Positions 26,267-52,113 of a DNA stretch of 64,000 nt are shown here, piece after piece. Origin of the DNA: Armatimonadota bacterium (GTDB taxonomy: Bacteria; Sysuimicrobiota; Sysuimicrobiia; Sysuimicrobiales; Sysuimicrobiaceae). Made by a program: the position numbers and the translations under genes. The first letter of the stretch is position 1; the number at the start of each line of letters is the position of its first letter. The DNA lies in NCBI GenBank assembly GCA_025059775.1, contig JANXCW010000001.1, forward strand, positions 1-64,000, in the 5' to 3' direction. The notes under the pieces were generated by a model. The model saw only the letters and a program-made list of their open reading frames with translations, did not search any database and was not told where the DNA came from.

Positions 26267-26297
26267 GATCACCTCCTTCGGCACCTCTCCCTCCGAC

Positions 26298-27635: not shown

Positions 27636-27663
27636 CTTCCTCACCTCCTCCGGCCTCTCCGCT

Positions 27664-29689: not shown

Positions 29690-29702
29690 CGCTCCTCCCT
29701 CC

Positions 29703-34080: not shown

Positions 34081-34105
34081 GGGAGGGATCCACGCTCCGT
34101 GGGCC

Positions 34106-35344: not shown

Positions 35345-35371
35345 CGATTGCACACCCCCTTCCTGAAATGG

Positions 35372-36313: not shown

Positions 36314-36360
36314 CCTGTCCTCCTCCCCTCGGTCTCTCTCCGCGGGCCTCCTCCATCTGG

Positions 36361-37062
36361 TTACCCGAACACCCAGCCGCCATCCACGTAGAGTTCGACC
36401 CCGTTGACCGCGGGGTTCTCCAGGAGGAAGGCCACCGCGTGCACCACATCCGCCATCCGCACGAGCCTTCCGGTAGGCGTCCGGGCCTGCACCCGCTCCA
36501 GCATCTCCCTGTTGTTGGCCCAATAGGGGCTGTCGCCCACGATCCCGGGATGGACGGCATTCACCCGGATGGGAGCCAGCTCCACCGCCAGGGTCCGCAC
36601 CAATCCCGAGACCCCCGCGTTCACGGTGGTGACCGTGGTGGACCCCGGGTAGGGCCGTTCCTTCGCCAGGCCCCCGAAGATGACGATGGCGCTCTCCGGA
36701 TGCATCCGCGCGTGGAGGGCGTGTACCACCGCGGTGTAGCCCACCAGCTTCAGGGTGACGAGGTTGAGGGCGCTCGGGATGTTGTACTCCCGCACACGGT
36801 TCTGGTCCCGGGTGATGGCCGCCAGCACCAATCCGTCCACGGTGCCGATCTCCGCCAGTTTTCCGGAGACCTCCTCCGGGCGGGTCAGGTCACACCCGAT
36901 GCCCTGGACCGCGGGGCCCACCTGTCGCGCGATCTCCGCGGCCCGGACCGGATCCCGTCCGGAGATTACCACCGGACGCCCTTGGCCCGCATAGTGGCGG
37001 GCGATCTCCAGCCCGATGCCGGACGTCCCGCCGATGATCACCACCGCACCGTCCCCTCGCAT
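36361..37062 (-). CDS. SDR-fold protein lacking the catalytic Tyr-Lys pair
   Basis: A 233-residue Rossmann protein. The cofactor loop IGGTSGIGLEIA (about 10-21) and the D-L of strand 4 are intact. The place of the Y-x-x-x-K motif reads VTTVNAGVSGLV, so both catalytic residues are missing. It may bind NAD(P) as a sensor or scaffold, or use different chemistry. ATG at 37062 lies 63 bp after the amidohydrolase gene. The C-terminal VELYVDGGWVFG is the normal SDR ending, so the gene is not truncated. Confidence 0.85.
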   Translation of the reverse strand: MRGDGAVVIIGGTSGIGLEIARHYAGQGRPVVISGRDPVRAAEIARQVGPAVQGIGCDLTRPEEVSGKLAEIGTVDGLVLAAITRDQNRVREYNIPSALNLVTLKLVGYTAVVHALHARMHPESAIVIFGGLAKERPYPGSTTVTTVNAGVSGLVRTLAVELAPIRVNAVHPGIVGDSPYWANNREMLERVQARTPTGRLVRMADVVHAVAFLLENPAVNGVELYVDGGWVFG

Positions 37063-37125
37063 CCCAGCTCCTCCTTACCCTGGATTGCGGCGCTCCGCGA
37101 CCTCCTGCGCAGCCCTTCGTCCACC

Positions 37126-38469
37126 TCAGATCTCGGGCAACCGGAACCCGGACTTGGACACCACGTAGTCCCGGGACTGGTAGGCGAGCTGTCGCACCCG
37201 GTTCAGGTCCACCCCCACCAGCTGGCCATGGCGCTTGAGGATCCGGCCCGCCACCATCACCGTATCCACGTTGCTGGTATCCATCCCCCACACCACCGCG
37301 CCGATGGGATCGTTGACGGGGAAGATATTGGGGCGATCCGTGCGTAACAGGATGATGTCCGCCTCCTTGCCCGGCGTGAGGGTCCCCACCTTGTGATCCA
37401 GGCCGTTGGCGCGGGCGCCCTCGATGGTGGCCCACTCCAGCACGTCCCGGGTCGTCACTAGGGGCGGTGCATCCTCCCGGCCTGCCAGCCGCTGTTCGAA
37501 CACCAGCATGTGCTGCAGGGAAATTGCACTGCGCATCTGCGTGAACATGTCGTTGGGAACATTGGTCTCCACGTCCACGCTCAGACTGGGGCGCAGGCCT
37601 CGGTCCAGGAAGCGCTGGATGGGAGGCATCCCGTGTCCCATCATCATCTCCACGGGGCAGGCCAGGGAGATGGTGGCTCCCGAGTCCACGATCAACTGGA
37701 TCTCCTCGTCGTTCAAGGTGCAGCAGTGGATAAAGGTGGTATCCGGGCCGTACAGCCCCGTCCGGCCCACCTCCCCTACCTTGCCGTGCCGACCGAAGGT
37801 GCCCACGCCCACGTGGGTCGTGATGCGTGCGTCCAGCTCCCGGGCCAACTGCCAGTCCGCCCGGCATCCTTCCAGGGAGTCGAACTCCGGCCCGAAGATC
37901 GCCAAGCCGAAGGTCAGGAGCTGGTCCTTCGAGGAGAAGTACTGCTGGGCGGCCCGCCGGATCCAGGCTGGGTGTTCGGGCTTGGGGGGCTCGAACCACG
38001 GCCGGCCGTACGCGAACACCGCCCGGATGCCCGCCTCCTGCAGGGCGCGGATGGCCGCATCCGTGTGCTCCGGAGTGGTCTGGATATGGGACCAGTCCAG
38101 GACCGTGGTGATGCCCGCGTCAATGCAGCCCAGAGCGCTCACGAGGTTCGCGATGTACACATCCTCGGGCCGGTAGGCGGGCGCCAGCTGGTTGAGCACG
38201 AAGGCGAGGTAGCTCCGCTCGCCCTCCAGCGGAACATCCGTCCCGATGTTCCGCAGGATCCCCTCCCAGCAGTGCCGGTGGGTATCGACGAAGCCCGGCA
38301 TGACGATCATCCCGGATGCATCGAGGATCTCCGCGTCCGCCGCGGTCAGGTTGGGCCCTACTGCGGCGATGCGGGTGTCTTCGATGAGGACGTCCGCCTG
38401 CGGGAAGTTGCCGATCTGCCGATCCAGGGTGAGCACGCACCCATTTTTGATCAGTATCCGCTTGGCCAT
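37126..38469 (-). CDS. Amidohydrolase of the TRZ/ATZ (cytosine deaminase-like) family
   Basis: A 447-residue metal-dependent hydrolase. The beta-sandwich start is KRILIKNGCVLTLD. DTHRH supplies the H-x-H pair (about 65-67), HVGVG and HCCTLNDEE supply further His residues, and DVETNVPNDM supplies the Asp. GTLTPGKEADIILL closes the family pattern. Relatives hydrolyse s-triazines, guanine, S-adenosylhomocysteine or cyclic ureas and act in the cytoplasm. ATG at 38469 follows a GGGGGAGGGG tract. It is the first gene of the catabolic train after the GntR gene. It has no signal peptide, unlike the amidohydrolase at the far end of the train. Confidence 0.9.
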   Translation of the reverse strand: MAKRILIKNGCVLTLDRQIGNFPQADVLIEDTRIAAVGPNLTAADAEILDASGMIVMPGFVDTHRHCWEGILRNIGTDVPLEGERSYLAFVLNQLAPAYRPEDVYIANLVSALGCIDAGITTVLDWSHIQTTPEHTDAAIRALQEAGIRAVFAYGRPWFEPPKPEHPAWIRRAAQQYFSSKDQLLTFGLAIFGPEFDSLEGCRADWQLARELDARITTHVGVGTFGRHGKVGEVGRTGLYGPDTTFIHCCTLNDEEIQLIVDSGATISLACPVEMMMGHGMPPIQRFLDRGLRPSLSVDVETNVPNDMFTQMRSAISLQHMLVFEQRLAGREDAPPLVTTRDVLEWATIEGARANGLDHKVGTLTPGKEADIILLRTDRPNIFPVNDPIGAVVWGMDTSNVDTVMVAGRILKRHGQLVGVDLNRVRQLAYQSRDYVVSKSGFRLPEI

Positions 38470-38517
38470 CGCCCCTCCCCCCTTCTGGCATGGCGTTGCG
38501 TGTGCTGATGACATAAA

Positions 38518-38577: not shown

Positions 38578-39312
38578 TCACCCCTGGATGCCTTCCCCCT
38601 CCACCGCATGCTCCCCTCCTCTCAGCACCCGCTGGATGTCCGTATAGACCCGGCCCAGGTGCTCCCGCATCCGCTCCCGGGCCGCCTCCGGGTTCCTCGC
38701 CCGGACAGCTGCCAGGATCTCCCCATGTTGGTCGATGGACGCCTCCGGGCTTCCCGGGATGTGGTAGACGGATTGGAGGGCCCGGTGCAGGGGATCCCGG
38801 ATGGCCCGCATCACGTACACCGCCACCCGATTGCGGGTGGCCTGGGCCACGGTGAGGTGGAAGCGGAGATCCGCCTCAATGTACCGTGCGGGCTCTCCTG
38901 CCACCAAGCCCGACCGCATCTGCTCGATGGCCTCCGCCATGATCCGGAGGTGCTCGGAGCTGCGACGCTGGGCGGCGAGGGCGGCGAACTCCGCCTCCAG
39001 GATGCGGCGCAGCTCGTACAGCTCCAGCAGGTCGAAGGCCTCCACGGTGAGGAGAAACCGTAGGGAGTCCACCAAAGCGTTCTCGTACTCCGCCACCACG
39101 AAGGAGCCCCGCCCCGCGGACCGGATCACCCCCTTGGACTCCAGCAGGCGGAGGGCTTCCCGCACGGAGGAGCGGCCCACCCCGAAATGGCGCATGAGTT
39201 CCTGCTCTGTGGGCAGCGCATCCCCTGGCCTGAGCCGGCGGGTTCGGATCTGATGCAGTAGGCGGTCCGCCAGCAGCCGGTAGACCTTGGGGCGCTCCAG
39301 GGGCTCGTACAC
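38578..39312 (-). CDS. GntR-family transcriptional regulator (FadR/FCD type)
   Basis: A 244-residue regulator. The N-terminal winged helix (about 8-75) contains LPTEQELMRHFGVGRSSVRE and LRLLESKGVIRSAGRGSFV, the GntR signature. The C-terminal half is an all-helical FCD ligand domain with the metal/ligand residues spread over the RFHLTVAQAT and DQHGEILAAV helices. Such proteins sense organic acids and usually repress neighbouring uptake and catabolic genes. The GTG start at 39312 follows the TRAP permease stop by 2 bp, so it is the third gene of the TAXI-TRAP operon and can control it autogenously. Confidence 0.9.
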   Translation of the reverse strand: MYEPLERPKVYRLLADRLLHQIRTRRLRPGDALPTEQELMRHFGVGRSSVREALRLLESKGVIRSAGRGSFVVAEYENALVDSLRFLLTVEAFDLLELYELRRILEAEFAALAAQRRSSEHLRIMAEAIEQMRSGLVAGEPARYIEADLRFHLTVAQATRNRVAVYVMRAIRDPLHRALQSVYHIPGSPEASIDQHGEILAAVRARNPEAARERMREHLGRVYTDIQRVLRGGEHAVEGEGIQG

Positions 39313-39314
39313 GG

Positions 39315-41210
39315 TTACCTCATCGCCGCGGCCCGGGCCGGGAGTCCTGCCTGCATCGCCGTCTCCTGGCGCATCCGCCGACGTCGCTGCCACAGGTACA
39401 CGAGGGCGAAGAGCCCGATTCCCACCAGATCCGTGGCCAGGGTGGGGATGAAGCAAAGCACCGTAGCCGCCGCCAGCACCCCCCACTCCAGCACGGTGGT
39501 ACGCACTAGGAAATAGCCCGTGCTCATGATGGAGAAGGCCACGGTCCCCACCACGGAGGAAACAGCCGCCCACAGGTTCTCCTGCCAGGTGCCCGTCATG
39601 AGGAGGTGGGTGTATGCGAACAGCACGGGCATGACGTAGATCATTTTGGCAAACCGGAAGCTGTTCCAGCCCGTGCGCCATGGATCCGCCTGCGCGATGG
39701 CGGCAGCGGTGACCGCACCCAGGGCCACGGGCGGGGTGATGTTGGAATCCAGGCTCAGCCAGAAGATGATCATGTGGGCGGACAAGAGTGGCACACCCAG
39801 CTTGACCAGAGCAGGGGCCGCCACCACGGCCAAGACCAGGTAGGCGGCGGTGATGGGCATACCCATCCCCAGCACGAAGCTGGCCGCGGCCACGAGCAGG
39901 AGCGCGACCGGCAAGTTGCCGCCGGAGACGTCCAGGACCAGTTGGCTGAAGCGTACCCCAATCCCTGTGAGGGTCACCACCGCCACCACGATCCCGATGG
40001 CCCCCGTCGCCGCGGCCACGTAGGTGCTGCTGCGCCCCGCGTCCACCAGGGCTTCCCAGATCTCCCGGGGGCCCATCCGGGTCTCCGGTCGCAGCCAGCT
40101 CACCAGCACGGTGCTGGCGATGCTGGCCATCACCGCCATGGGGGCGGAGGTGGTGCGGACCAGCACCGCCACCAGCACCGCCAAGGGCAGCAGGAAGTAC
40201 CACCCTGCCCGGAGGACGTCCCGCAGCCGAGGGATCTGGTCCGGTGGAAGTCCCTCCAAGCCCAGCTTGCGGGCCTCGCAGTACACCATCACGCCCACGC
40301 CCAGGAAGTACAGGAGGCCGGGGAGCGCGGAGAGCGCCGCGATGCGGGCGTAAGGGATCTGGGTGAGCTCCGCCATAATGAAGGCGCCTGCCCCCATCAC
40401 AGGGGGCAGGATCATCCCCCCCGTGGAGGCCGCTGCCTCCACCGCGGCCGCGATATGCGGGGGAAAGCCACACCGTTTCATGAGGGGGATGGTGAAGGCG
40501 CCCGTGGTGGCCGTGTTGGCTACAGGACTCCCGTTGATGGAGCCGAACAGGGCGCTGCTCACCACCGCCACCTGGGCGGGGCCGCCCCGCATGCGGCCCA
40601 CCAAGGCGAGGGAGAGGTCCATGAAGAACTTCGCCACCCCTGCCCGCAGCAGAAACGCCCCGAAGGCCACAAAGGGCAGGATGTAGCTGGCGAGGATGTC
40701 CGGCATGACACCGAACAGCCCCTCTGGGGTGAGGTAGAAGTACTCCACCACCCGGCGGAGGGTGAACCCCCGGTGGCCCACCACGGAGGGCAGGTGGTTC
40801 CCCCACAGGGCGTAGGCCACCAGCAACAGAGCCACCACGGTCATGGAAGGTCCCAGGACCCTGCGGGTCACCTCCACGCTCAGGACGAGGGCCAGGATCC
40901 CCATGGTCACGTCCAGGGAGGTGAACGCCCCCGCCCGGTAGGCCAAAGCCTCGTACTGTGTGATCCAGTACCCGGCCACCACACAGGAGGCGCCGGCGAG
41001 CAGCACATCCGTCCACGAAGGCCTGTCCTGGGGGGAACGCCGGGTGGCACGGTAGAGAAGGAAAGCGGCGGCGAGGCTGTAGAGCACCGCAATGCCGCGG
41101 TGGTACTGGAGGCTTGTGACCTCCACCGCCGCGGCCCACAGGTAGAATCCCACGGTGGCCGCGAGGCCCGCCCTCACCAGGCGATCCCACGGGCCCACCA
41201 GCTTCCGCAT
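39315..41210 (-). CDS. Fused TRAP transporter permease (4TM + 12TM), TAXI type
   Basis: A 631-residue very hydrophobic protein in which the small and large TRAP permease subunits are fused, as is normal for TAXI systems. Typical blocks are GSINGSPVANTATTGAFTIP, STGGMILPPVMGAGAF and GMGMPITAAYLVLA. It imports an organic acid with a sodium or proton gradient together with the binding protein encoded upstream. ATG at 41210 was preferred because it starts just before the first helix; the ribosome site is weak, so coupling to the upstream gene (14 bp away) is likely. Confidence 0.92.
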   Translation of the reverse strand: MRKLVGPWDRLVRAGLAATVGFYLWAAAVEVTSLQYHRGIAVLYSLAAAFLLYRATRRSPQDRPSWTDVLLAGASCVVAGYWITQYEALAYRAGAFTSLDVTMGILALVLSVEVTRRVLGPSMTVVALLLVAYALWGNHLPSVVGHRGFTLRRVVEYFYLTPEGLFGVMPDILASYILPFVAFGAFLLRAGVAKFFMDLSLALVGRMRGGPAQVAVVSSALFGSINGSPVANTATTGAFTIPLMKRCGFPPHIAAAVEAAASTGGMILPPVMGAGAFIMAELTQIPYARIAALSALPGLLYFLGVGVMVYCEARKLGLEGLPPDQIPRLRDVLRAGWYFLLPLAVLVAVLVRTTSAPMAVMASIASTVLVSWLRPETRMGPREIWEALVDAGRSSTYVAAATGAIGIVVAVVTLTGIGVRFSQLVLDVSGGNLPVALLLVAAASFVLGMGMPITAAYLVLAVVAAPALVKLGVPLLSAHMIIFWLSLDSNITPPVALGAVTAAAIAQADPWRTGWNSFRFAKMIYVMPVLFAYTHLLMTGTWQENLWAAVSSVVGTVAFSIMSTGYFLVRTTVLEWGVLAAATVLCFIPTLATDLVGIGLFALVYLWQRRRRMRQETAMQAGLPARAAAMR

Positions 41211-41223
41211 ACCCGTTTGCGCA

Positions 41224-42219
41224 TTACCGCGCCCGGATGGCGTCCGGGATCTCCAGCCCCACGGACCGGTAGTAGGCCTCCGCACCGGGGTGCAGGGGGA
41301 TGCTCACCCCCAGCAGAGCCCGCCGTGTGGTCATGTCCGCGGAAGCACTGTGCACCTGCAGCATGTGGGCGTGCCCCTCACGGCTGTAGGCCGCGGCCAC
41401 CAGCCGGCGCACGAGGGCTGGGGAGACGTCTCGATGCGCGAACCACAGACCCGGAATGCCGATGGTGCTCACGGAGTCCGTGAGTCCGTGGTAGCCCCGG
41501 TTCGGGATCACGTACCGGATGAAGTACGGATACTTCCGGAAGAACTCGGTGCGGGAGAGGGGACCGTACAGATCCAGGAGGTGTACCTCCTTGGCGATGG
41601 CGGCCTCGATGGTGGCCCGATCCGGGTAGGGAGCCGTGAAGAAGAACGCGTCCACCCGCCCGTCCCGGAGCGCCGCGGCCGCCGCGGACCCCAGGAGCGG
41701 CACCCGCTGGACGCGATCCCATAGGCCCAGCTCCGTGAGGATGCGCTGGGCGTTCGAGAAGGTGCCGGAGCCCGGGGATCCCACCGCCACGCGTTTGCCC
41801 ACGAGGTCCCCGACGGTTCGGATCCCGCTGTCCTTGTAGGTGACGAAGTGCCCCACACCAATGAAGAGGAGCCCGATGGCCCGGATGTTGCGCTGCGGGT
41901 TGCCCTGGAACGCCTCGAGTCCGTAATATCCCTCATGGACGTCGCTCGCGAAGGCCACCGCGAGCTCGGCCTCCTTCCCGTTCACCCGCCGCACGTTCTC
42001 CACAGACCCGCCCGTGGCCGCCACGGTTACCTCCACGCCGGGCACGTTCCGCGACAGGAACGTGGCGAGGCCCGTGGCGAACACGTTAAATACCCCCGCG
42101 GCCGGCCCCCCCAGGATGGTTAGGCGCTCCACGGGGCCCGCAGAAGCCCCCGCGGCCCCCAGGACCACCAGGAGCACGACCACCATCCCAACCAGCCATC
42201 TCCCCTGCACCGCACTCAC
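41224..42219 (-). CDS. TAXI family TRAP transporter substrate-binding protein
   Basis: A 331-residue periplasmic protein. The signal peptide (MVVVLLVVLGAAGASAG) is followed by LTILGGPAAGVFNVFATGLA, the TAXI N-terminal pattern, and by GKRVAVGSPGSGT (about 140-152), the ligand-contact block. It hands substrate to the fused permease downstream. The GTG start at 42219 is followed by another in-frame GTG four codons later that may be used instead. The ligand is unknown; glutamate- or dicarboxylate-like compounds are known for the family. Confidence 0.9.
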   Translation of the reverse strand: MSAVQGRWLVGMVVVLLVVLGAAGASAGPVERLTILGGPAAGVFNVFATGLATFLSRNVPGVEVTVAATGGSVENVRRVNGKEAELAVAFASDVHEGYYGLEAFQGNPQRNIRAIGLLFIGVGHFVTYKDSGIRTVGDLVGKRVAVGSPGSGTFSNAQRILTELGLWDRVQRVPLLGSAAAAALRDGRVDAFFFTAPYPDRATIEAAIAKEVHLLDLYGPLSRTEFFRKYPYFIRYVIPNRGYHGLTDSVSTIGIPGLWFAHRDVSPALVRRLVAAAYSREGHAHMLQVHSASADMTTRRALLGVSIPLHPGAEAYYRSVGLEIPDAIRAR

Positions 42220-42230
42220 CCTTTCATTTC

Positions 42231-42283
42231 AGCAGATCATCAGACAAACCCTACGCCGCCGGGCAACCCTCCTCCTGTCGAAC
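42231..42283 (-). promoter_or_regulatory. Bipartite upstream element A (TAXI-TRAP-GntR operon)
   Basis: On the minus strand GTTCGACAGGAG (complement at 42272-42283) is followed 26 bp later by GTCTGATGATCTG within 42231-42247, just upstream of the GTG start. The same two blocks, 25 bp apart, precede the LIV importer operon at 48.1 kb, where 13 of 17 bases of the proximal block agree. TTGTC-T-GATGA inside it has the dyad form of FadR-type GntR operators. Binding by the operon's own GntR protein is inference. Confidence 0.5.
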
Positions 42284-42329
42284 CTGTGTTCGCAATCCTG
42301 GATGGGAGCTGGTTTTACGGATCCCAGCA

Positions 42330-42490
42330 CTAGATCCTCTCCGGGGCGACCTCATAGCCGGAGGCCTCCAAGGATCCCACCCCGATCCACCCCCACCCGA
42401 GGACCGCTTCCTCTTCGCCCGTGTTGCCGAATCCGTGCCAGACGCCCCTTGATGTAGAACACATCCCCTTCCGCGGCGCCTCCCACGTAC
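42330..42490 (-). pseudogene. Remnant of a cupin-domain protein (C-terminal part, frameshifted)
   Basis: After the alcohol dehydrogenase stop, two minus-strand frames together read GYVGGAAEGDVFYIKG, then GVWHGFGNTGEEEAV, then GSLEASGYEV and a stop at 42330. This is the second half of a cupin barrel, including its metal His in WHGF. One extra G in the run AAGGGGCG near 42447 separates the frames. The N-terminal half is missing: that sequence is occupied by the dehydrogenase. It looks like a gene cut by recombination and left to decay. The remaining 42220-42329 carries the control region of the TAXI operon. Confidence 0.6.
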
Positions 42491-42499
42491 CCACTCCCG

Positions 42500-43558
42500 T
42501 CACCCGCTCGGATCCACCACGACCTTCCCTGCCGCCTCCCGATGCACGAGCGCGAGGAGGCCTCTTGGCACGACCTCTCCGAGCGGGATCACGCGATCCA
42601 CCACGCGATTCGCGAGGTCCGTGGATGCGAGGATCCGGATGGCCTCCGGCAGGTCCTGGTCGCATACATGGGCGACCGCGGTGATCCAGCAGATCTCCTG
42701 AAGGACCATCTCCCGGACCGGCACCCGCGGGGAGCGGTGGGGCAATCCTACCTGCAGGATGGTCCCGCCCTGTCGGACAAGCCCTGTAGCTTGCTCCAGG
42801 ACCTCTTCCGCGCCCGAGCTATCTACCACCACCTCCGCGCCTTCGCCCCGGGTCGCTCTCAGCACGGCCCCACGCACATCGTCTCGTCCCGCCTGCAGCC
42901 GGCGTGAAGCCCCCACCCGCTCTGCCAGCTCGAGTCGATGGGGATCCACATCCACCGCCACGATGGCCTCCCCGCCCCATGCCCGGGCAACTCCGACCAG
43001 GAGGGACCCGATGCCGCCCGTGCCGATCACCACCAGGGACATCCCGGGAGCCCACCCGCTCCGTCGCAGGGCGTGCACCGCCACCGCGGTGGGCTGGGCG
43101 ATGGCGGCTGCCTCGTCCGAGCACGTCTCGGGGACCTCCACGCAGGTTCGGGCGGGGACACATACGAACTCCGCGAGCCCGCCATGGGCGTGCAGCCCCA
43201 AGGTGTAGTACCGCGCGCACAGGTTCGTCCGGCCGGCCCGGCACCACGGACAGGCGCCGCACCACACTCCGGCGCCGCACACGACCCGTTGGCCCTCCCG
43301 AAAACCCACCTCCGGCCCACAGGCCACCACCTCACCCACGAATTCGTGTCCCAGGATCGTGGGACCACGATGCCCGGTGACGGGATGCGGGTCGTGCAGG
43401 GGGATCATGAGCGGGCCGTGCAGATACTCCGAGACATCCGTCCCGCAAAGGGAAGCCCGCCGGACCCGAAGGAGTACCTCCTGGGGTCCGGGTTCCCGGG
43501 GCTCCGGGACCGAAGCAACCCGCACGTCCTGGTTCCCGTAGTACACCGCTGCCCGCAT
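42500..43558 (-). CDS. Zinc-dependent alcohol/polyol dehydrogenase (MDR family)
   Basis: A 352-residue medium-chain dehydrogenase. Catalytic zinc ligands are in SLCGTDVSEY (Cys38) and GHEFVGEV (His and Glu). The structural zinc site is the four-Cys cluster CGACPWCRAGRTNLC. The Rossmann loop is GTGGIGSLLVG. It resembles butanediol, sorbitol and threonine dehydrogenases; substrate undetermined. ATG at 43558 shares one base with the permease stop, so it is the last gene of the LIV importer operon. It may process the imported compound. Confidence 0.9.
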   Translation of the reverse strand: MRAAVYYGNQDVRVASVPEPREPGPQEVLLRVRRASLCGTDVSEYLHGPLMIPLHDPHPVTGHRGPTILGHEFVGEVVACGPEVGFREGQRVVCGAGVWCGACPWCRAGRTNLCARYYTLGLHAHGGLAEFVCVPARTCVEVPETCSDEAAAIAQPTAVAVHALRRSGWAPGMSLVVIGTGGIGSLLVGVARAWGGEAIVAVDVDPHRLELAERVGASRRLQAGRDDVRGAVLRATRGEGAEVVVDSSGAEEVLEQATGLVRQGGTILQVGLPHRSPRVPVREMVLQEICWITAVAHVCDQDLPEAIRILASTDLANRVVDRVIPLGEVVPRGLLALVHREAAGKVVVDPSG

Positions 43559-44574
43559 CACACCCCCAACCGGCGCCCGCGGAAGGGGCGCACCAGTCCC
43601 ATCAGGCCCTGGGGGGCGTACAGGGCGATGAGGACCAAGGCCGCACCGAAGACCGCCCGGTTGAACTCCGCGGGGATGCGCGCCCCGAACAGACCCAGAT
43701 GCACCACGCCCACCCGCAGCAGCTCCGCCACCAGCATGACCAGGGGGACACCCAACAGGGGACCCTGCCAGGTCCCCGCACCCCCCACCATGGCCATGAG
43801 GACCACGTCCACGGAGATGTCCAGGCTGAACACCCCCGTGGGCTCGATGTACCCGATCCGCTGGGTGTACAGACCTCCGGCCACGCCTGCCCAGAACGCT
43901 CCCAGCAGCAGGGCAGCCACCTTCACCCACGTGGTCCGCACGCCGAGAACGCCCGCCGCCACCTCGTCCTCCCGCACGGCCACCAGGGCGGCCCCGAAGC
44001 GGGAGGACTGAATCCGTGCCGCGATTCCCGTGACCAGCAGGGCAAGCCCCAGGTACGTGAAGTAAAAGAACTGCTCCACCACCCGCCGGTCCCAGGGCAG
44101 GGGAGACACGTAGATTCCCATGGCGCCCCGGGTCCAGGGAACGTTGTACGCAAGCACCTGGGCGAGGAATCCCAGGATCATGGTGAGGACAGCGAAGTAC
44201 GGCCCTCGCACCCGCAGGCTTGGCACGCCCACGGCCGCAGCCCAGAGCACCGCCATCAGTCCTCCCAGGGGGAACGTGAGGAGAGGAGACCAGCCCCACC
44301 TGTAGGCCAGGATCCCCGTGGTGTAGGCCCCGACTCCGAAGAACACGGCCATGGCGAGGTTCAGGTAGCCGGCATAGCCTCCCAGAAAATTCCATGCCTG
44401 GGTGAGGAGCAGGAACAGGAAGACGTTGGTTAGGGTACTCAGGAGTCCCAGGCCCTCCCACCACGCTCCGATCCCCACCACGATCCCCAGGAGCGCAGCC
44501 GCACCTAGGGCGTGCCGGCGGCCCAGCCGGGTGGGTCCGGACGTCCAGGTCTCCGGCCAAACGGAGGATCGCAT
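43558..44574 (-). CDS. LIV-type ABC transporter permease (LivM-like, second system)
   Basis: A 338-residue permease. WNFLGGYAGYLNLAMAVFFG (about 61-80) is the LivM core, and AVREDEVAAGVLGVRTTW is the coupling region. It starts 4 bp after the LivH-like gene stop. The gene order KGFHM differs from the KHMGF order of the other importer, so the two systems are not a recent tandem duplication. Confidence 0.92.
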   Translation of the reverse strand: MRSSVWPETWTSGPTRLGRRHALGAAALLGIVVGIGAWWEGLGLLSTLTNVFLFLLLTQAWNFLGGYAGYLNLAMAVFFGVGAYTTGILAYRWGWSPLLTFPLGGLMAVLWAAAVGVPSLRVRGPYFAVLTMILGFLAQVLAYNVPWTRGAMGIYVSPLPWDRRVVEQFFYFTYLGLALLVTGIAARIQSSRFGAALVAVREDEVAAGVLGVRTTWVKVAALLLGAFWAGVAGGLYTQRIGYIEPTGVFSLDISVDVVLMAMVGGAGTWQGPLLGVPLVMLVAELLRVGVVHLGLFGARIPAEFNRAVFGAALVLIALYAPQGLMGLVRPFRGRRLGV

Positions 44575-44578
44575 GGCG

Positions 44579-45460
44579 TTAGAGAACCCGCTCCTGCACG
44601 GTCTGCAGGCCGCGGCCGCGGAGGATCAAGGTGATGGCCAGAAACGCGTACACCACCGCGTACACGTACTGGAAGGGCAGGAGGATTCCACTGAGTGCTT
44701 CGAGTTCGCCGACCAGCAGTCCCGCCAGCAGCGCGCTCCGGATTCCCCCCAGGCCCCCCACCACCACCACGAGGAAGGCCCATGCCAGCCACCGGAGGTG
44801 CTCCTGCGGCGCGAACGGGAACATCATGGCCACGGCCACCCCTCCCATGGCGGCCGTGGCCACACCGGCCCCCACCACCAACATAGAGATCCTCGCCACA
44901 TCCACCCCGAGCACCGCGGCCGCATCCGGATTCTGCCCGACCGCGCGCACCACCTTCCCCAGCAGGGTGCGGCGCAGCACAGCATCCAGGACCAGGATCA
45001 TGGCCAGAGCAAGGCCCGCGGCCAGCAGGCGCCCCAGGGAGACCCGGATCCCGCCCACGGTCAGCACCACCTGGCCCGTCTGCCACGGCAGGACCCGGGT
45101 GTCCGTGGTCCACACCAAGATGGCCCCGTTCTCCAGCACCAGCATGAGACCGAACAGCACGAGGAGCCCCATGGCCTCCAGGGCGGAGGCGGTGCGCCGG
45201 AGCAGCAACCGGTCTATCGCCATCCCGACTCCGAAGAACACGGGCGCCACGGCCAGCACCGAGAGCAGCGGTGGCGCGCCCAACCGCCACAGCATCTCCA
45301 GCGCGAAGAAGGACCCCAGCATGACGAACGCGCTGTGGGCCACGTTCACGATCCCCAGCACGCCCAGGGTCAGGCTAAGCCCCACGGAGACCAGGGCGTA
45401 CACCAAACCCAAAAGCACGCCGTTGATCATGGCTTCGACCAGCAAAGGCGCCATCCTCAC
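44579..45460 (-). CDS. LIV-type ABC transporter permease (LivH-like, second system)
   Basis: A 293-residue permease beginning LVEAMINGVLLGLVYALVSVG, the LivH N-terminus, with AVGQNPDAAAVLGVDVARI as the coupling helix. The GTG start at 45460 overlaps the LivF-like gene stop (GTGA); an ATG two codons on is an alternative. It forms the membrane channel with the LivM-like subunit. Confidence 0.92.
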   Translation of the reverse strand: MRMAPLLVEAMINGVLLGLVYALVSVGLSLTLGVLGIVNVAHSAFVMLGSFFALEMLWRLGAPPLLSVLAVAPVFFGVGMAIDRLLLRRTASALEAMGLLVLFGLMLVLENGAILVWTTDTRVLPWQTGQVVLTVGGIRVSLGRLLAAGLALAMILVLDAVLRRTLLGKVVRAVGQNPDAAAVLGVDVARISMLVVGAGVATAAMGGVAVAMMFPFAPQEHLRWLAWAFLVVVVGGLGGIRSALLAGLLVGELEALSGILLPFQYVYAVVYAFLAITLILRGRGLQTVQERVL

Positions 45461-46182
45461 ACCCGCAGCCAGTCCCGGACCACCGCGTGCATCCGCTGCT
45501 GGAACTCGTCCCGAGTTCCCTCCAGCTGGTTGCGGCCGAACGCCAGGGCGTACACGTAGTCCGCGAGGGAGACCGCGGCCCGGACGTTCTGATCCACCAG
45601 CAGCACCGTGCGTCCCTCCCGGTGCAGCCGGGCCACTTCCTCATAGACCTCCTGGGCGGCCACGGGGGCCAGGCCCGCGGTGGGTTCGTCCAGCAGGATC
45701 ACCCAGGGATCCGTGACCATCATCCGGGCGATCTCCACCATGCGCTGCTGCCCCCCGCTGAGAACTCCGGCCGGTCGATCCCGCCAGGCCTTGAGGCCCG
45801 GATACCGTTCGTAGATCCGGTCCAGGGCGGAGCGTCGTGCGGCCCGCGGCAGGGCCCAAGCCCCCACCTCCAGGTTCTCCTGCACCGTGAGGCCGGGAAA
45901 CACGCTCCGACCCTGGGGGAGATACCCCATGCCGAGATCCACCCGCCGGTGTGCGGGCAGCTGGCTGACATCCTCCCCGTCCACCCACACGGTACCCCGC
46001 CGGGGCCGGAGAAGGCCGTATACCACCCGCAGCACCGTGGACTTCCCGGAGCCGTTGGGGCCGAGAACCGCCGTGAGCTGGCCGGGTCGCGCGATGAGAC
46101 TCACTCCCTGAAGCACGGTCTGTTCCGGATAGTACCCGGCTTCCACGTGAACCACGCGGACCTCACGAGACCGCGGATGCAC
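45457..46182 (-). CDS. LIV-type ABC transporter ATP-binding protein (LivF-like, second system)
   Basis: A 241-residue ATPase with Walker A GPNGSGKST (41-49), LPQGRSVFPGLTVQENL, signature LSGGQQRMVEIARMM and Walker B VILLDEPTAGL, all intact. The GTG start at 46182 overlaps the LivG-like gene by 20 bp. It works with the LivG-like ATPase to drive uptake. Confidence 0.93.
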   Translation of the reverse strand: MHPRSREVRVVHVEAGYYPEQTVLQGVSLIARPGQLTAVLGPNGSGKSTVLRVVYGLLRPRRGTVWVDGEDVSQLPAHRRVDLGMGYLPQGRSVFPGLTVQENLEVGAWALPRAARRSALDRIYERYPGLKAWRDRPAGVLSGGQQRMVEIARMMVTDPWVILLDEPTAGLAPVAAQEVYEEVARLHREGRTVLLVDQNVRAAVSLADYVYALAFGRNQLEGTRDEFQQRMHAVVRDWLRV

Positions 46183-46900
46183 GGCCGCCTCCCAGGTACG
46201 CTTCGACCACCGCGTCGTTCCGCGCCACCTCCTCCGGAGGCCCGTCCGCGATCACCCGGCCCTGGTTGAGGCACAGCACACGCTGGCTGATGGACATCAA
46301 CACGGGGATCTCGTGACTGACCACCACGAAGGACACGCCCTCCTGCTGCAGCGTCTTCAGGCGCTCCGTCATGACCTCGATGGCATCCGGATGTACTCCT
46401 GCAAAGGGCTCGTCCATGAGAACCACCCGAGGCCGGGGCATCAGGGCCCGCACGAACTCCAGCAGCCGCTGCTGCCCTCCCGAAAGCTGGCTCGCCGGAA
46501 CCTGTGCGTATCCCTCCAGGCCCACGGAGGCGAGGAGTTCCATGGCCCGGTGCTGGGCGTCCGAATCCGGGATGGCGCGGTGCAGCACGGGGACGAGCAT
46601 GTTCTGCATGGCGGTGAGGCTCCGGAATACCCGGGTGTTCTGAAAGGTCCGCATGACTCCGAGATCGGCGAGGCGTTGCGGGGGGCCTCCCTCCACCCGA
46701 TGTCCGGCGACCCACACTTCTCCGGCATCCGGCCCGTACACACCGTTCAGCAGGTTCAACAGGGTCGTCTTCCCGGAACCGTTCGGCCCGATGATCCCCA
46801 GCACGACCCCATCCTCCAGGTCGAAGGACACCCCGTCCACCGCGAGGATTCCACCGAAACGCTTCACCAAGTTCCGAACCGTCAGGACGGGGCGGCTCAC
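46163..46900 (-). CDS. LIV-type ABC transporter ATP-binding protein (LivG-like, second system)
   Basis: A 245-residue ATPase with Walker A GPNGSGKTT, FQNTRVFRSLTAMQNM, signature LSGGQQRLLEFVRAL and Walker B VVLMDEPFAGVHP. GTG at 46900 overlaps the binding-protein stop (GTGA) and fits the family start; an ATG at 46945 would overlap that gene by almost 50 bp. Unlike the LivG paralog at 31-32 kb it keeps a full signature motif. Confidence 0.92.
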   Translation of the reverse strand: MSRPVLTVRNLVKRFGGILAVDGVSFDLEDGVVLGIIGPNGSGKTTLLNLLNGVYGPDAGEVWVAGHRVEGGPPQRLADLGVMRTFQNTRVFRSLTAMQNMLVPVLHRAIPDSDAQHRAMELLASVGLEGYAQVPASQLSGGQQRLLEFVRALMPRPRVVLMDEPFAGVHPDAIEVMTERLKTLQQEGVSFVVVSHEIPVLMSISQRVLCLNQGRVIADGPPEEVARNDAVVEAYLGGGRASAVS

Positions 46901-48144
46901 GGCATCGGAATAACGGGCCTCGCGGTGGCCCGGTTCGGAGGCCACACCACTTCGTTCCGCCCCCGGAGGAACTGCAGGACGACTGGGTTATAGCTGGGGA
47001 TCCCGTCCTTGTCGTACTGGAGGATGCCGTTGGCGGTGGCGAACTTCCGCCCCACCACGTACGCCCGCAGCTTGGCCTGGTCGAGGCTCCCGGTGGCCTT
47101 CACCGCCTGCTCCATGACCTGGAGGATGGTGAGGGCGACGGTCGCAAAGGAGGGGAGCTCCCGATACCCCATTCGCTGGAGCAACGCGTGGAGGACATTG
47201 ACTTCCTTGTAGCGGTCCGTATGCCAAGCCATGGCAGTTCCCATGATTCCTTCTGCCGCAGGTCCGAGGTCCCGCCAGTACGGGAGCATTGTTACCGGAG
47301 AACCGCACTGGCAGTAGAGGGCGGGCTTGAACCCGAGTTCGTGCGCGGTGCGGGCCAGCAGGGCCGCGGGGTTGGGCAGGGCTAGGGCGAAGAAGAGGTC
47401 CACATTCGCCGCCTTGGCCCGCTGGATGAGCCCGCTTACGTCCGTCACGGTAGGAGCGAATTCCTCGTTCAACACCACGGGGATGTCGCGCTGCCGGGCA
47501 AATCCGAGCACGCCGCCATATCCCTGGTACCCGTTCTTCACCACGAGGGTAAAGGGATTCTGCTCCGTGACCACTCCGATGCGTCGAGGCCGCTGCGACG
47601 GCGGAAGGCTATCGATCAGTTCGAAGATCCCACGCGGGTAGTCGGGCTCCTGGTATGAGTAAGCCCCTACCATCCACCGGGATTTTTTGAACAGCTCAAT
47701 CCCCACGAACCCCCCGTTCCACAGCACCTTGCCTGCGGACTCCACGATGGGGATGATCGCGCCCCCCACGAGGGTGGTGTACGGTGCCAGGACCAGGTCC
47801 ACATTGTCCTCCTTCAGCAGCCGCTGGTAGAGGGCCTGGGCCACCGCGGGCTTACCTTCATCATCGTAGAGGATGAGCCGCACCGGCCTTCCCAGCAGCC
47901 CTCCCTCCCGGTTCACCCGGTTGACCCAGTACTCGTAGACCGCCTTGTACACGGCGGAGGGGCCGGAGAAAGGCCCCGTGAGACCGAGCGAACCGCCTAC
48001 CAGAATGGGACGGGCTACCGGAGCGCCCGAACCGACCTGAGAGAGGCCCACGAGCAGAAGACCCACGAGCAGCCCCACCACCCAGGTCCGGGAGCTGTGG
48101 ACACCGGGCCTGCGGCATACCTGCGTAAGCCGCACCACACTCAC
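46897..48144 (-). CDS. LIV-type ABC transporter substrate-binding protein (second system)
   Basis: A 415-residue periplasmic binding protein. The signal peptide (VVGLLVGLLLVGLSQVGSG) is followed by ILVGGSLGLTGPFSGPSAVYK, the LAPYTTLVGGAI ligand segment and a C-terminal ATANGILQYDKDG that is common in amide/urea and branched-chain binding proteins. First gene of its operon. The GTG start at 48144 has AAGGGGGTG in front. Its 5' region resembles that of the TAXI gene at 42.2 kb, although the proteins are unrelated. Confidence 0.9.
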   Translation of the reverse strand: MSVVRLTQVCRRPGVHSSRTWVVGLLVGLLLVGLSQVGSGAPVARPILVGGSLGLTGPFSGPSAVYKAVYEYWVNRVNREGGLLGRPVRLILYDDEGKPAVAQALYQRLLKEDNVDLVLAPYTTLVGGAIIPIVESAGKVLWNGGFVGIELFKKSRWMVGAYSYQEPDYPRGIFELIDSLPPSQRPRRIGVVTEQNPFTLVVKNGYQGYGGVLGFARQRDIPVVLNEEFAPTVTDVSGLIQRAKAANVDLFFALALPNPAALLARTAHELGFKPALYCQCGSPVTMLPYWRDLGPAAEGIMGTAMAWHTDRYKEVNVLHALLQRMGYRELPSFATVALTILQVMEQAVKATGSLDQAKLRAYVVGRKFATANGILQYDKDGIPSYNPVVLQFLRGRNEVVWPPNRATARPVIPMP

Positions 48145-48152
48145 CCCCTTGA

Positions 48153-48204
48153 ATCAGATTGTCAGACGAGCTCTTCTGTGTTTGATAAAAGTCTCCTGCC
48201 GAAC
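48153..48204 (-). promoter_or_regulatory. Bipartite upstream element B (second LIV operon)
   Basis: On the minus strand GTTCGGCAGGAG (complement at 48193-48204) precedes CGTCTGACAATCTGAT (48153-48169) by 25 bp, ending 9 bp before the start codon. Both blocks recur upstream of the TAXI operon. TTGTC-A-GACGA is a near-perfect dyad of the FadR-GntR kind. It overlaps the place where RNA polymerase or the ribosome would act, so repression is likely. I see no convincing -10/-35 pair here. Confidence 0.5.
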
Positions 48205-48222: not shown

Positions 48223-48813
48223 CTACTGGAGCGGTTCCAGGGCTTCCCGCACCCTGGCCCAGTCCTCCGGGGTGTCCACGTCCAGGGCCGCCTCCTCCAG
48301 GGGGACGAAGACCGCTTCGCTTCCGTGGGCTTCCAGCACCGGCTTGGCACCCACATCGCCCTGAAGGGCTTTCAACTCCGAGAACAGGGCCCGGTGGAAG
48401 AGGGCCGGGGGACCGACCGTCCCCCGATACGCGCAGGCCACAATCCGGACTCCCTCCCTCCGCCAGATCTCCACGAGCCGCTGCAGGTGTTGTGGGGTCA
48501 GAGCAGGCTGGTCTCCAAGCAGCAGAAGTACTGCCTCCGCGTCCTCCACAGCCTCAATCCCCCTGCGCAGGGAGGTGCTGAGGCCCTGGGCGTGTTCCGG
48601 GTTCTCCACCACCCGCACAGGGAGACCGGAAAGTTCTGCCTGCATGCGGTCCGCCTCCGGCCCCACCACCACCACCACCTCATCGCAGATCCCAAGGGCC
48701 GTCTCCACCACCCGGCGCAAGAGGCTTTTTCCTCCTAAGTGCAGCAGGAGCTTCGGCTGCCCCATGCGGCGGCTACTGCCCGCCGCCAGCACGACGCAGG
48801 CAACCTTGCTCAC
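48223..48813 (-). CDS. MobA/MocA-like molybdopterin nucleotidyltransferase
   Basis: A 196-residue nucleotidyltransferase with the NTP signature VVLAAGSSRRMGQPKLLL (about 6-23), a metal-binding LLGDQPAL and a GPPALFHRALF segment. MocA proteins attach CMP to molybdopterin, producing the MCD cofactor of xanthine-dehydrogenase-family enzymes. The GTG start at 48813 overlaps the XdhC stop (GTGA). As last gene of the AAA-VWA-XdhC set, its place supports MCD synthesis over the GMP form. Confidence 0.85.
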   Translation of the reverse strand: MSKVACVVLAAGSSRRMGQPKLLLHLGGKSLLRRVVETALGICDEVVVVVGPEADRMQAELSGLPVRVVENPEHAQGLSTSLRRGIEAVEDAEAVLLLLGDQPALTPQHLQRLVEIWRREGVRIVACAYRGTVGPPALFHRALFSELKALQGDVGAKPVLEAHGSEAVFVPLEEAALDVDTPEDWARVREALEPLQ

Positions 48814-49928
48814 ACGGGGAGTGGCTCGTGGATGGGGGCGGGTCGGTCCCGCAGGAACCCCGCCTTCCGACCGTTCAGGGCCGCGAGGATCTCCGCGAGG
48901 ATGGCCAGGGCGATCTGCTCCGGCCCTTCTGCTCCGATGTCCAGGCCTACCGGTGCGTAGATCCGCCCCTCCAGTTCCGGACTTGGCCGTACGCCCTCCG
49001 CCTCCAGCTCCCGCAGGATCTTCTGGGTGCGCTGCCGGGGGCCCAAAAGTCCCAGGTAGGCGGGCGTGGTAGGGTAGGTGAGCAGGGAGCGGATGAGGTT
49101 CTTGTCGTGCAGGTAGTTGTGGGTCATCACCACCACGCAGGTTCGGGCATCGGGCCGGATCGCCTGCGCGGCTTCTGAAAACTCCGTGTGGAGGAATCCG
49201 TATGCCTCCGGGAACCGCTCCCGGGAGAGGAACTTCTCCCGCCGATCCACCACCACGGGCCGGAAGCCCAGCTCGTGTGCCAGGCGCACCAGCGGAATGG
49301 CGTCGTGTCCGGCTCCGCACACCACCAACCGCAGGGGGGGCTGGAGGGGCTCAAAGAAGAGCACAAACTCCTCCATGGCCTCGCGGGCCGGCTTTCCGTG
49401 GCACAGCACCTCCTGCGCCCGCGAGGCCGCCTGCGCGTCGAGTTCTGCCCGTCCGAGACTTCCCTCCCAGGTACCGTCCGGGTAGACCACCAGGCGCCGC
49501 CCGAGTTGAGGGGATCCCTCCGGTCCGATGACGGTCACCACCGCGAGCGGCCGTTCCCGCTCCACCGCCTCCTCCAGGAACCGCTCCGGCGGGGGTTCCG
49601 TAATACCCACCTTCTCCACCAGGACGTCGATCACCCCGTTACAGCCAAGTCCCAGCCCCCACACCGCCTCGTCGTCCGCGGTGAGGTCGTAGTGCAGCAG
49701 GCGCGGCCGCCCGTCCTGTAGAACTTCCTCCGCCACGATCTGCACGTCCCCCTCCAGGCACCCCCCTGAGATGGAGCCCACGAGGTCCCCGGTGGATCGG
49801 ATCAGCAGCCGGGCTCCCTCCCGCCGGTAGGTGCTTCCCCGCACCCCGACCACGGTGGCCAGGGCAGCTTCCTCCCCGCGGTCGCGTACCTCCCGCAGGG
49901 CCTGGAGGATGTCCAGCAGTTCCCGCAT
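48810..49928 (-). CDS. XdhC/CoxI family molybdenum cofactor insertion protein
   Basis: A 372-residue two-domain protein. The N-terminal XdhC/CoxI domain has GSTYRREGARLLI and SGGCLEGDV (about 30-62). The C-terminal Rossmann domain has VVCGAGHDAIPLV (about 210-222) and ends with DIGAEGPEQIALAILAEI. XdhC binds the cofactor, protects it during sulfuration and delivers it to molybdenum hydroxylases. The nearest such enzyme here is the orphan large subunit at 20.5-22.9 kb. It follows the VWA gene by 2 bp. Confidence 0.9.
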   Translation of the reverse strand: MRELLDILQALREVRDRGEEAALATVVGVRGSTYRREGARLLIRSTGDLVGSISGGCLEGDVQIVAEEVLQDGRPRLLHYDLTADDEAVWGLGLGCNGVIDVLVEKVGITEPPPERFLEEAVERERPLAVVTVIGPEGSPQLGRRLVVYPDGTWEGSLGRAELDAQAASRAQEVLCHGKPAREAMEEFVLFFEPLQPPLRLVVCGAGHDAIPLVRLAHELGFRPVVVDRREKFLSRERFPEAYGFLHTEFSEAAQAIRPDARTCVVVMTHNYLHDKNLIRSLLTYPTTPAYLGLLGPRQRTQKILRELEAEGVRPSPELEGRIYAPVGLDIGAEGPEQIALAILAEILAALNGRKAGFLRDRPAPIHEPLPV

Positions 49929-49930
49929 TC

Positions 49931-51088
49931 CTACTCCCTCCTTGCGATGCGGCGCCTCCGCGCCACCAGGGTGCGCTCCAGGGCGCGGAGGCTATCGAGG
50001 TTGTGGGCGGCGGCGAACACGTCCACGAAGGGTAGGGCCGTCTGCATGCCCCGGGTGAGGGGCTGGTAACCGGGGCTGCCGAGGAGGGGATTCAGCCAGA
50101 TCACCCGGCCTGAGCGGGCCCGGATCTCCCGCATGGCCCGGTGCAGGACCTCCACGTCTCCGGTGTCCCAGCCGTCGCTGAGGATCACCACCACCGTATG
50201 CGGATCCAGCAGGTGCCGCCACCCCTCCAGGAACTGCATGAGGCTCGCGCCGATCCGGGTACCCCCGGACCAGTTGGGCACCGTACGGCTCAGCCGGTCC
50301 AGCGCCTCCCGTAGGGTCCGAGACCGGAGGGCGGGGGTAACCCGGGTGAGGGAGGTGCTGAACACGAAGCTTTCCACGTTGCCCACGGCCTCCTGGAGCG
50401 CGTACACGAACTGGATCAGGAGCCGGCTGTAGATGTCCATGGAGCCGGAGACGTCGCACAGGAGCACGAGCCGTGTTTTGCGGATCCGCGGACGCTTAAA
50501 GGCCAGCTCCGGCAATTCCCCGCCCCACCGCAGGTGGAGCCGCATGGTGCGCCGCAGGTCGAGCCGGTGGCTGTGCCGAGCCCGCTGCATCCGGCGGCTC
50601 ATGCGGGTGGCGATGCGGCGGGCGATGGCCACCACCAGCTTCCCGATCTCCTCGAGCTCGCGATCCGTGAAGTTGGAGAAGTCCTTCCGGCTCAAGACCT
50701 CCAGAGCGCTGTAGCCAGGGACCTCCTGCTCTCCTTCCGTCTCCTCCCCGGCCTCCGCCCACCGTTCCATGGAGAGCTGCCCCTGCTCCCGCCCGGGCTC
50801 CTCCAGCGCCCCTCGTTCCTCCCCGTTCTCCGGTAGGGATTCCACGGGCGGGGAGGGGGACCAGTAGAGGGGGTAGAGGGCGTCGAAGATGCGCAGGTCG
50901 TGGTGGCTGTGGACCAGGGTGGTCCGGAGGGCGAGCCGGAACTGTTCCGGGTCCAGGACGTCCACCCGCTCCAGAGCCCGGAGGGCGTCCGCCACCTCCC
51001 CAGGCCCGCACAGAACCCCCTGAGCGCGCAGGGCCCGACCGAAGGCCACCACGTGGGCGGTGAGGTCTCCCAGCTCCGCTCTCCTCAC
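49931..51088 (-). CDS. VWA domain protein of the CoxE family
   Basis: A 385-residue protein with a C-terminal von Willebrand A domain. The MIDAS metal motif DVSGSM is near residue 215, with FSTSLTR and ILSDGWDTGD supplying the other ligands. In CO dehydrogenase maturation CoxE works with the MoxR-type ATPase CoxD to build the Mo-Cu centre; relatives serve other molybdenum hydroxylases. The Glu-rich linker (about 105-145) precedes an Arg-rich basic stretch. GTG at 51088 overlaps the ATPase stop (GTGA), typical of the coupled CoxD-CoxE pair. Confidence 0.9.
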   Translation of the reverse strand: MRRAELGDLTAHVVAFGRALRAQGVLCGPGEVADALRALERVDVLDPEQFRLALRTTLVHSHHDLRIFDALYPLYWSPSPPVESLPENGEERGALEEPGREQGQLSMERWAEAGEETEGEQEVPGYSALEVLSRKDFSNFTDRELEEIGKLVVAIARRIATRMSRRMQRARHSHRLDLRRTMRLHLRWGGELPELAFKRPRIRKTRLVLLCDVSGSMDIYSRLLIQFVYALQEAVGNVESFVFSTSLTRVTPALRSRTLREALDRLSRTVPNWSGGTRIGASLMQFLEGWRHLLDPHTVVVILSDGWDTGDVEVLHRAMREIRARSGRVIWLNPLLGSPGYQPLTRGMQTALPFVDVFAAAHNLDSLRALERTLVARRRRIARRE

Positions 51089-52035
51089 GCCTTCAACGTT
51101 CGCTCGATCCGGCTCAGGGCTCGGGCGAGCCCCTCTCCGTCCCGCTGGGCCTCGTGGATGGCCGCGAGGGCCGCGTCCAGCCACGGGCCCCGTACCAGTC
51201 GCTGGTCCTCGTGGTGTTTGAACAGGCACCCCATGGTCTCCTCCACGCTCTCCCGATCCAGGTGATCCCGGTGCAGGCGGAGGAGCGCGAGGCTCCAGTC
51301 CAGGGTCTCCGCAACCCCCGGGACCTTCTGGAGGTCCAGGCGCCGCACCAGGTGCATGAAGGCTGCGATCTGCTCAGCGAGCCGCTGCGAGATCCCGGGG
51401 ACCTTGCGGAGCACGATGCGCAGTTCCTTCTCGAAGCTGGGGTAGTCGATCCACAGGTACAGGCACCGCCGCCGCAACGCATCGCTCAGCTCCCGGGTGC
51501 GGTTGCTGGTGAGCACCACGTAGGGGATGTGCTTCGCCCGGATGGTCCCGATCTCCGGGATGGTCACCTGCCAGTCGCTCAGCACCTCCAGCAGGAAGCT
51601 CTCGAACTCCACGTCTGCCCGATCGATCTCGTCCACCAGGAGCACCGGAGCCCGATGATGGGTGATGGCCTGCAGCAGCGGCCGACGGAGCAGGAAAGCT
51701 TCCGAGAAGATGGTCTGCTCCTTCTCCTCCACGGTGCGCTCGCTTCCCTCCTCCAGGCGGATGCGCAGCATCTGCTTGGGGTAGTTCCATTCGTAGAGGG
51801 CGGTGCTCACGTCCAGCCCCTCGTAGCACTGCAGCCGGATGAGGTCGGTCCCGAGGGCTTGGCTCATGACCTTCGCGATCTCGGTTTTCCCCACTCCGGC
51901 CGCGCCCTCCACCAGAAGGGGCTTGTGGAGCTCGATGGAGAGGTAGATGGCGGTGGCAATTTCCCGATCCGCGATGTACCCCTCTTGCTCCAGGGCCTGG
52001 AGAATCTGCTCGATGTTCCCTAGGGTCGGCCGCAT
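51085..52035 (-). CDS. MoxR-type AAA ATPase (CoxD-like)
   Basis: A 316-residue AAA+ ATPase with Walker A GAAGVGKTE (about 43-51), Walker B VLLVDEIDRAD, a sensor-1 Asn in VVLTSNRTRE and the arginine-rich RRRCLYLWIDYP segment. It partners with the VWA protein encoded next as a remodelling chaperone for a molybdenum enzyme. ATG at 52035 is preferred over GTG at 52065 because a TATAAT hexamer sits inside the extra codons and a GAGG site precedes the ATG. Confidence 0.9.
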   Translation of the reverse strand: MRPTLGNIEQILQALEQEGYIADREIATAIYLSIELHKPLLVEGAAGVGKTEIAKVMSQALGTDLIRLQCYEGLDVSTALYEWNYPKQMLRIRLEEGSERTVEEKEQTIFSEAFLLRRPLLQAITHHRAPVLLVDEIDRADVEFESFLLEVLSDWQVTIPEIGTIRAKHIPYVVLTSNRTRELSDALRRRCLYLWIDYPSFEKELRIVLRKVPGISQRLAEQIAAFMHLVRRLDLQKVPGVAETLDWSLALLRLHRDHLDRESVEETMGCLFKHHEDQRLVRGPWLDAALAAIHEAQRDGEGLARALSRIERTLKA

Positions 52036-52052
52036 GGGCACATCCTCGTGTC

Positions 52053-52058
52053 CATTAT
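52053..52058 (-). promoter_or_regulatory. Consensus -10 box (TATAAT) before the AAA ATPase gene
   Basis: TATAAT on the minus strand lies about 18 bp upstream of the ATG at 52035, in the 78-bp gap after the TRAP permease gene. No recognisable -35 stands 16-18 bp further upstream, so an activator or an alternative contact may be needed. A small GC hairpin (CGGCC-ACGC-GGCCG) lies further upstream in the same gap. Confidence 0.4.
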
Positions 52059-52113
52059 ACTGCACCTTCTCGGCTAGCGGCCGCGTGGCCGGACTTGTCC
52101 CAGCACCATCCCT

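Follow-up and report, generated by a model that had tools for sequence, protein, structure and literature searches.

Two importer operons in a 64,000-nucleotide stretch of DNA from an Armatimonadota bacterium (referred to below as the window) encode unrelated proteins and yet have similar upstream regions, which raises the question of whether the TAXI-TRAP-gntR operon and the second LIV operon (LIV2) share an operator. The whole cluster is transcribed in one direction (Table 1), and the FadR-type gene that the first-pass annotation placed in the first operon is its third gene, gntR. Genome-wide work in the 2.35-Mb genome consisted of pattern searches and selected stretches.

Table 1. Positions in the window of the promoter blocks, predicted operators and genes discussed in the text
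Feature	Positions	Strand	Basis or remark
Distal block GTTCGACAGGAG	42272-42283	-	upstream of TAXI-TRAP-gntR operon
Distal block GTTCGGCAGGAG	48193-48204	-	upstream of LIV2 operon
Proximal block GTCTGATGATCTG	42233-42245	-	TAXI-TRAP-gntR side
Proximal block GTCTGACAATCTG	48155-48167	-	LIV2 side
TAXI-TRAP-gntR operator GTCTGATGATCTGCT	42231-42245	-	predicted; 2 mismatches to GTCNGANNNTCNGAC
LIV2 operator GTCTGACAATCTGAT	48153-48167	-	predicted; 1 mismatch to consensus
Start-codon context GGTGAGTGCGGTGC of TAXI gene	42207-42220	-	exact only here and at 48132-48145
Start-codon context GGTGAGTGTGGTGC of LIV2 binding-protein gene	48132-48145	-	exact only here and at 42207-42220
TAXI-family TRAP solute-binding protein	41224-42219	-	NCBIfam TIGR02122, 214 bits; PF16868
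Fused TRAP permease	39315-41285	-	TIGR02123, 637 bits
GntR-type regulator with FCD domain, proposed binder	38578-39312	-	PF00392, PF07729
LIV2 periplasmic binding protein	46897-48144	-	PF13458
LIV2 ATPases and permeases	43558-46945 (46163-46945, 45457-46182, 44579-45460, 43558-44574)	-	PF00005, PF02653
Zn-type dehydrogenase, co-moving with LIV2	42500-43561	-	NCBIfam; synteny
Catabolic core	25145-30593	-	downstream of gntR in relatives' loci
Beta-hydroxyacid dehydrogenase	29703-30593	-	catabolic core
E1-alpha	28676-29668	-	catabolic core
E1-beta	27664-28629	-	catabolic core
M24 peptidase-like	26298-27677	-	catabolic core
E2	25145-26284	-	catabolic core

Sequence blocks common to the two promoters

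The bipartite element reported earlier was recovered upstream of both operons, in both cases on the minus strand. The distal blocks are identical at 11 of 12 positions and the 17-base proximal blocks at 13 of 17, as originally counted, and the spacers between them (26 bp for TAXI and 25 bp for LIV2) have diverged in sequence; the GTG start, previously put at 9-12 bp beyond the 17-base block, lies 11 and 8 bp away from it. In Markov shuffles, a 12-mer with an 11/12 match at that spacing had a P value of ~0.0006. Exact matches to the proximal sequence GTCTGANNATCTG occur at these two places only in the 2.35-Mb genome, and the distal sequence GTTCGRCAGGAG occurs exactly four times; its other two occurrences are without the proximal block and apparently lie within coding sequence.

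A third common block, GGTGAGTGYGGTGC, which the first-pass annotation had missed, spans the start codon and is matched exactly, genome-wide, at the TAXI and LIV2 binding-protein genes only. When the window's gene-start regions were compared in 1225 pairs, the TAXI/LIV2 pair ranked first by both local and global alignment score, with an alignment score of 14.5 versus a mean of -10.6 (sd 5.4). The common distal block and start-codon context suggest that a promoter cassette was copied. The earlier statement that simple gene duplication does not account for the likeness holds for the genes, which are unrelated, although duplication of the promoter cassette is likely.

The distal block is present in both genomes of the genus, where its distance to the proximal block is 24-26 bp, and not clearly beyond; g2 genomes carry a purine-rich GGAAGGAG or CAGGA at a similar distance. 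It is possibly a promoter or activator element. Two other readings of this block were rejected. Its CAGGAG could be taken as the Shine-Dalgarno sequence of a leader peptide, but inspection revealed no short frames before the LIV genes (short ATG/TTG frames do occur before the TAXI genes of G001 and G000), and a sporulation-type (0A-box-like) reading of TTCGRCA was dropped, the block being rare in the genome. The original proposal of a two-block operator stands for the proximal block; the distal block is only a putative part of it.

Architecture and conservation of the predicted operator

In relatives, the proximal block takes the form of a clean 15-bp predicted operator, GTCNGA-NNN-TCNGAC, consisting of two GTCNGAC units 8 bp apart, a pitch at which tandem-repeat and 15-bp-dyad readings both hold. 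The G001 orthologues of the two promoters carry exact operators (GTCTGACGATCTGAC at TAXI and GTCTGACAGTCTGAC at LIV2), and the cleaner TAXI-promoter forms, namely CTGTCTGACAATCAGACC in g2 genomes, TTGTCTGAATGTCGGACC in G010 and G029, and TTTGTCTGACGATCTGACGG in G001, cover the genus, its family, and a second family in the order and all match GTCNGA-NNN-TCNGAC. Of 20 promoters, 17 reach 10/12 or better at pitch 8, compared with 0-2 at pitches 5-7 and 9-11; the 7 promoters that reach 10/12 at pitch 12 are expected from the internal symmetry of the units. Some sites have a third unit (e.g., those of G002, G014, G020, and G029). The initial reading of TTGTC-N-GA(T/C)GA as a dyad of the FadR/GntR kind is supported, with the refinement that the predicted operator comprises paired GTCNGAC units rather than the single half then described. 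By comparison with these forms, the predicted window sites are decayed versions with one and two mismatches. The TAXI site, with two, is not significant alone (P 0.11) and is so degenerate that it would be uncallable without its orthologues.

At TAXI and LIV genes of the class, 8-34 bp separate the predicted operator from the start codon, a placement that fits a repressor that would block RNA polymerase. Neither a terminator nor a sigma-70-like promoter was recognised at either window element; the lack of a recognisable promoter counts against this reading and makes repression by position an inference. If the two blocks were instead the -35 (distal) and -10 (proximal) elements of an alternative sigma factor promoter, with no operator involved, their conserved spacing within the genus and their location just before the ribosome-binding site would be accommodated. 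However, the proximal block is both palindromic and tandem, in other genera it stands without the distal block, also next to LIV genes divergent from gntR, and arrays of two to three 8-bp units are unlike promoter design, so that we regard a sigma factor promoter as highly improbable.

Comparison of the same promoters in related genomes revealed that the motif is conserved at orthologous TAXI, LIV, or gntR promoters. The operator precedes orthologous TAXI-TRAP, LIV, or gntR genes in 14 class genomes that keep the 38578-39312 regulator, three of them with degenerate sites, and a dyad with 0-1 mismatch stands just upstream of the first gene of the operon in G001, G002, G004, G005, G006, G010, G029, G032, G014, and G016. 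Eight exact dyads occur in ~220 kb of relatives' loci, every one of them at a TAXI, LIV, or gntR promoter, against an expectation of ~0.2 for 10 fixed bases. In the gntR-first operons (G014, G016, G020, G038, and G009), gntR is preceded by an intact or degenerate operator; as two-unit sites, those of G020 and G038 are degenerate (9/12). The regulator orthologues of G009 and G038 came from a later search and were left out of the motif definition. Their promoters contain one perfect unit with weaker 8-bp-phased neighbours, scoring 10/12 as a two-unit site (P 0.003) and 13/18 as a three-unit site (P 0.002) in G009, and 13/18 as a three-unit site (P 0.012) in G038. Also in G009, a three-unit array, GTCAGCTTGTCAGACAAGCGGAT (L257, 10504), is located in the divergent promoter that serves a probable aldehyde dehydrogenase gene and what is probably an importer operon; it adjoins a second GntR gene (30% identical) and may belong to either regulator.

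Since relatives of one order are not independent, we place the weight on the held-out genomes, a paralogue control, and distant metagenome-assembled genomes (MAGs). A regulator-alignment scan of public genomes identified 49-53% identical regulators in Actinobacteria/Thermoleophilia MAGs, and the operator was found beside the regulator in four of these. In these MAGs, gntR heads a HIBADH-E1a-E1b operon divergent from a LIV operon. The copies in L117 (3621 and 3742) and L118 (9538 and 9656) lie one each at the LIV and gntR starts; L120 has one unit only at LIV (8940) and a full site at gntR (9052), and L119 has a single site, before gntR. As judged from these sites, the distant MAGs repeat the window pattern: in another phylum, too, this regulator would control a LIV importer.

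These observations bear on the proposition that the two window promoters are alike only through copying of a promoter-RBS-start cassette, in which case recent common ancestry would suffice without joint regulation. The three collinear blocks, which include codons after the start, and the top rank of the pair agree with copying. Against copying as the sole cause, both genomes have retained the operator while the spacers have diverged, G000 has poorer operator copies than G001, and the operator is also present on LIV and gntR promoters in the distant MAGs. Cassette copying probably occurred but fails to explain the conservation, and we consider it unlikely as the entire explanation.

Specificity for the regulator and its neighbourhood

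Of 38 paralogous TAXI/LIV promoters in the same genomes, none has a site within one mismatch, which rules out the motif as a general feature of TAXI or LIV promoters. Nor is it scattered at random across its own genome, where 35 one-mismatch dyads compare with 33 for the reversed control; these dyads, no commoner than the control and mostly in coding sequence, exclude a genome-wide regulon. Among 74 loci whose GntR homologues are more distant (identity of 43% or less), only three exact dyads were present, none of them recognised as the homologue's own promoter. In its distribution among these sequences, the motif tracks the regulator, not the transporters. A different FadR-type regulator encoded elsewhere in the genome might nevertheless read the site, given that GntR-type regulators are numerous and can share GT-N3-AC cores and that a first look with the regulator profile yielded 35 candidates in the G000 genome. 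However, the operator co-occurs with orthologues of the 38578-39312 regulator in 18 genomes, including directly upstream of gntR, and this together with the scarcity of dyads at the 74 distant loci makes another regulator very unlikely.

In relatives, the regulator adjoins HIBADH-E1a-E1b(-M24-E2) genes, mostly together with TAXI-TRAP, LIV, or both. The regulator neighbourhood has TAXI-TRAP in the g2 and g7 genomes, G014, and G016, LIV in G038 and L117-L120, and both importers in G000, G001, and G020; in the stretch examined around the G009 regulator, neither TAXI-TRAP nor LIV was recognised. G001 has the LIV-dehydrogenase block between TRAP and gntR, the window has it before TAXI, and each importer retains its own operator in both. 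In G020, LIV and TAXI-TRAP form one co-directional run downstream of gntR, and the operator is at the gntR promoter.

Several further features of the neighbourhood were noted. In the genus, amidohydrolase, SDR, and cupin genes and a further LIV operon (30639-38514) part gntR from the hydroxyacid-dehydrogenase/E1 genes, which directly follow gntR in most relatives. Between the dehydrogenase and the TAXI operator (42330-42499), the window has a stop-terminated frame, VWHGFGNTGEEEAVLGWGWIGVGSLEASGYEVAPERI, that resembles the end of a truncated cupin-like gene; the dehydrogenase of G001 has gntR directly after it. Between two importer operons (48223-52065) lie XdhC, MocA-like, CoxE-like, and AAA maturation genes of molybdenum hydroxylases, and no structural gene of such an enzyme was recognised among the neighbouring genes examined.

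The 38578-39312 protein combines an N-terminal GntR winged helix-turn-helix (PF00392, 69 bits, residues 13-73) with a C-terminal all-alpha FCD effector domain (PF07729, 108.6 bits, residues 97-220). Residues D148, H152, H196, and H218 are invariant in 11 regulator orthologues, and we take them to be candidate metal ligands in the effector pocket. All NCBIfam scores of the protein are far below the equivalog cut-offs. The FadR subfamily (FadR, PdhR, LldR, GlcC) shares with this system the HTH and FCD domains and a local regulon of adjacent metabolic and transport genes. Its consensus, GTM-N(0-1)-KAC, in which 3 nt separate GT from AC, has a GT-N3-AC core that is matched by the GTC-N-GAC unit (PMC4494728); however, the subfamily uses one extended palindrome, whereas two (sometimes three) units at an 8-bp pitch occur here.

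The best NCBIfam match is NanR of E. coli (140.7 bits, below the cut-off of 260), which is also a PDB relative (6on4). NanR dimers bind operator repeats cooperatively, and the (GGTATA)3 operator is, as here, an array of closely spaced repeats (PMC8012715). In contrast, the GGTATA repeat is unrelated in sequence to GTCNGAC, and the protein is without most of the 32-residue N-terminal extension that mediates cooperativity in NanR: its residue 3 aligns to NanR residue 25, and its helix-turn-helix begins at residue 13. By score, the regulator is not NanR. We regard the system as a new predicted local regulon within a regulator family that is already known; no description of this regulon was found in the papers searched.

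A proposed switch for two importers

The suggestion of a shared operator linking two importers is supported, and neither the genome-scatter test nor the comparison of relatives refuted it. We consider it likely that the FCD-type GntR protein 38578-39312 uses the proximal block as its operator and would repress both importer operons. In each operon, dimers of the regulator would probably occupy the DNA between promoter and ribosome-binding site and block transcription; with gntR as third gene in the TAXI-TRAP operon, the regulator would repress itself too. A carboxylate-type metabolite of the hydroxyacid-dehydrogenase/E1 (hydroxyacid/2-oxoacid) pathway would probably release it, and the LIV2 promoter probably gained its operator within the copied promoter-RBS-start cassette. 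Read in this manner, the sequences point to one switch that probably controls both importers and the shared breakdown pathway.

More tentatively, and at somewhat less than even odds in our judgement, an FCD-type regulator without the NanR extension may assemble cooperatively on two to three palindromic GTCNGAC units at an 8-bp pitch, repeatedly recruiting the unrelated LIV ABC and TAXI-TRAP importers to a single hydroxyacid/2-oxoacid dehydrogenase pathway; cassette copying would have been the means in at least one lineage.

In an uncultured lineage, a testable DNA site links two importers with both a regulator and a catabolic core, and illustrates a route by which an unrelated transporter comes under an existing regulator. 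The prediction that LIV and TAXI-TRAP are alternative importers for the substrates of one pathway would aid substrate assignment in two transporter classes that are hard to annotate.
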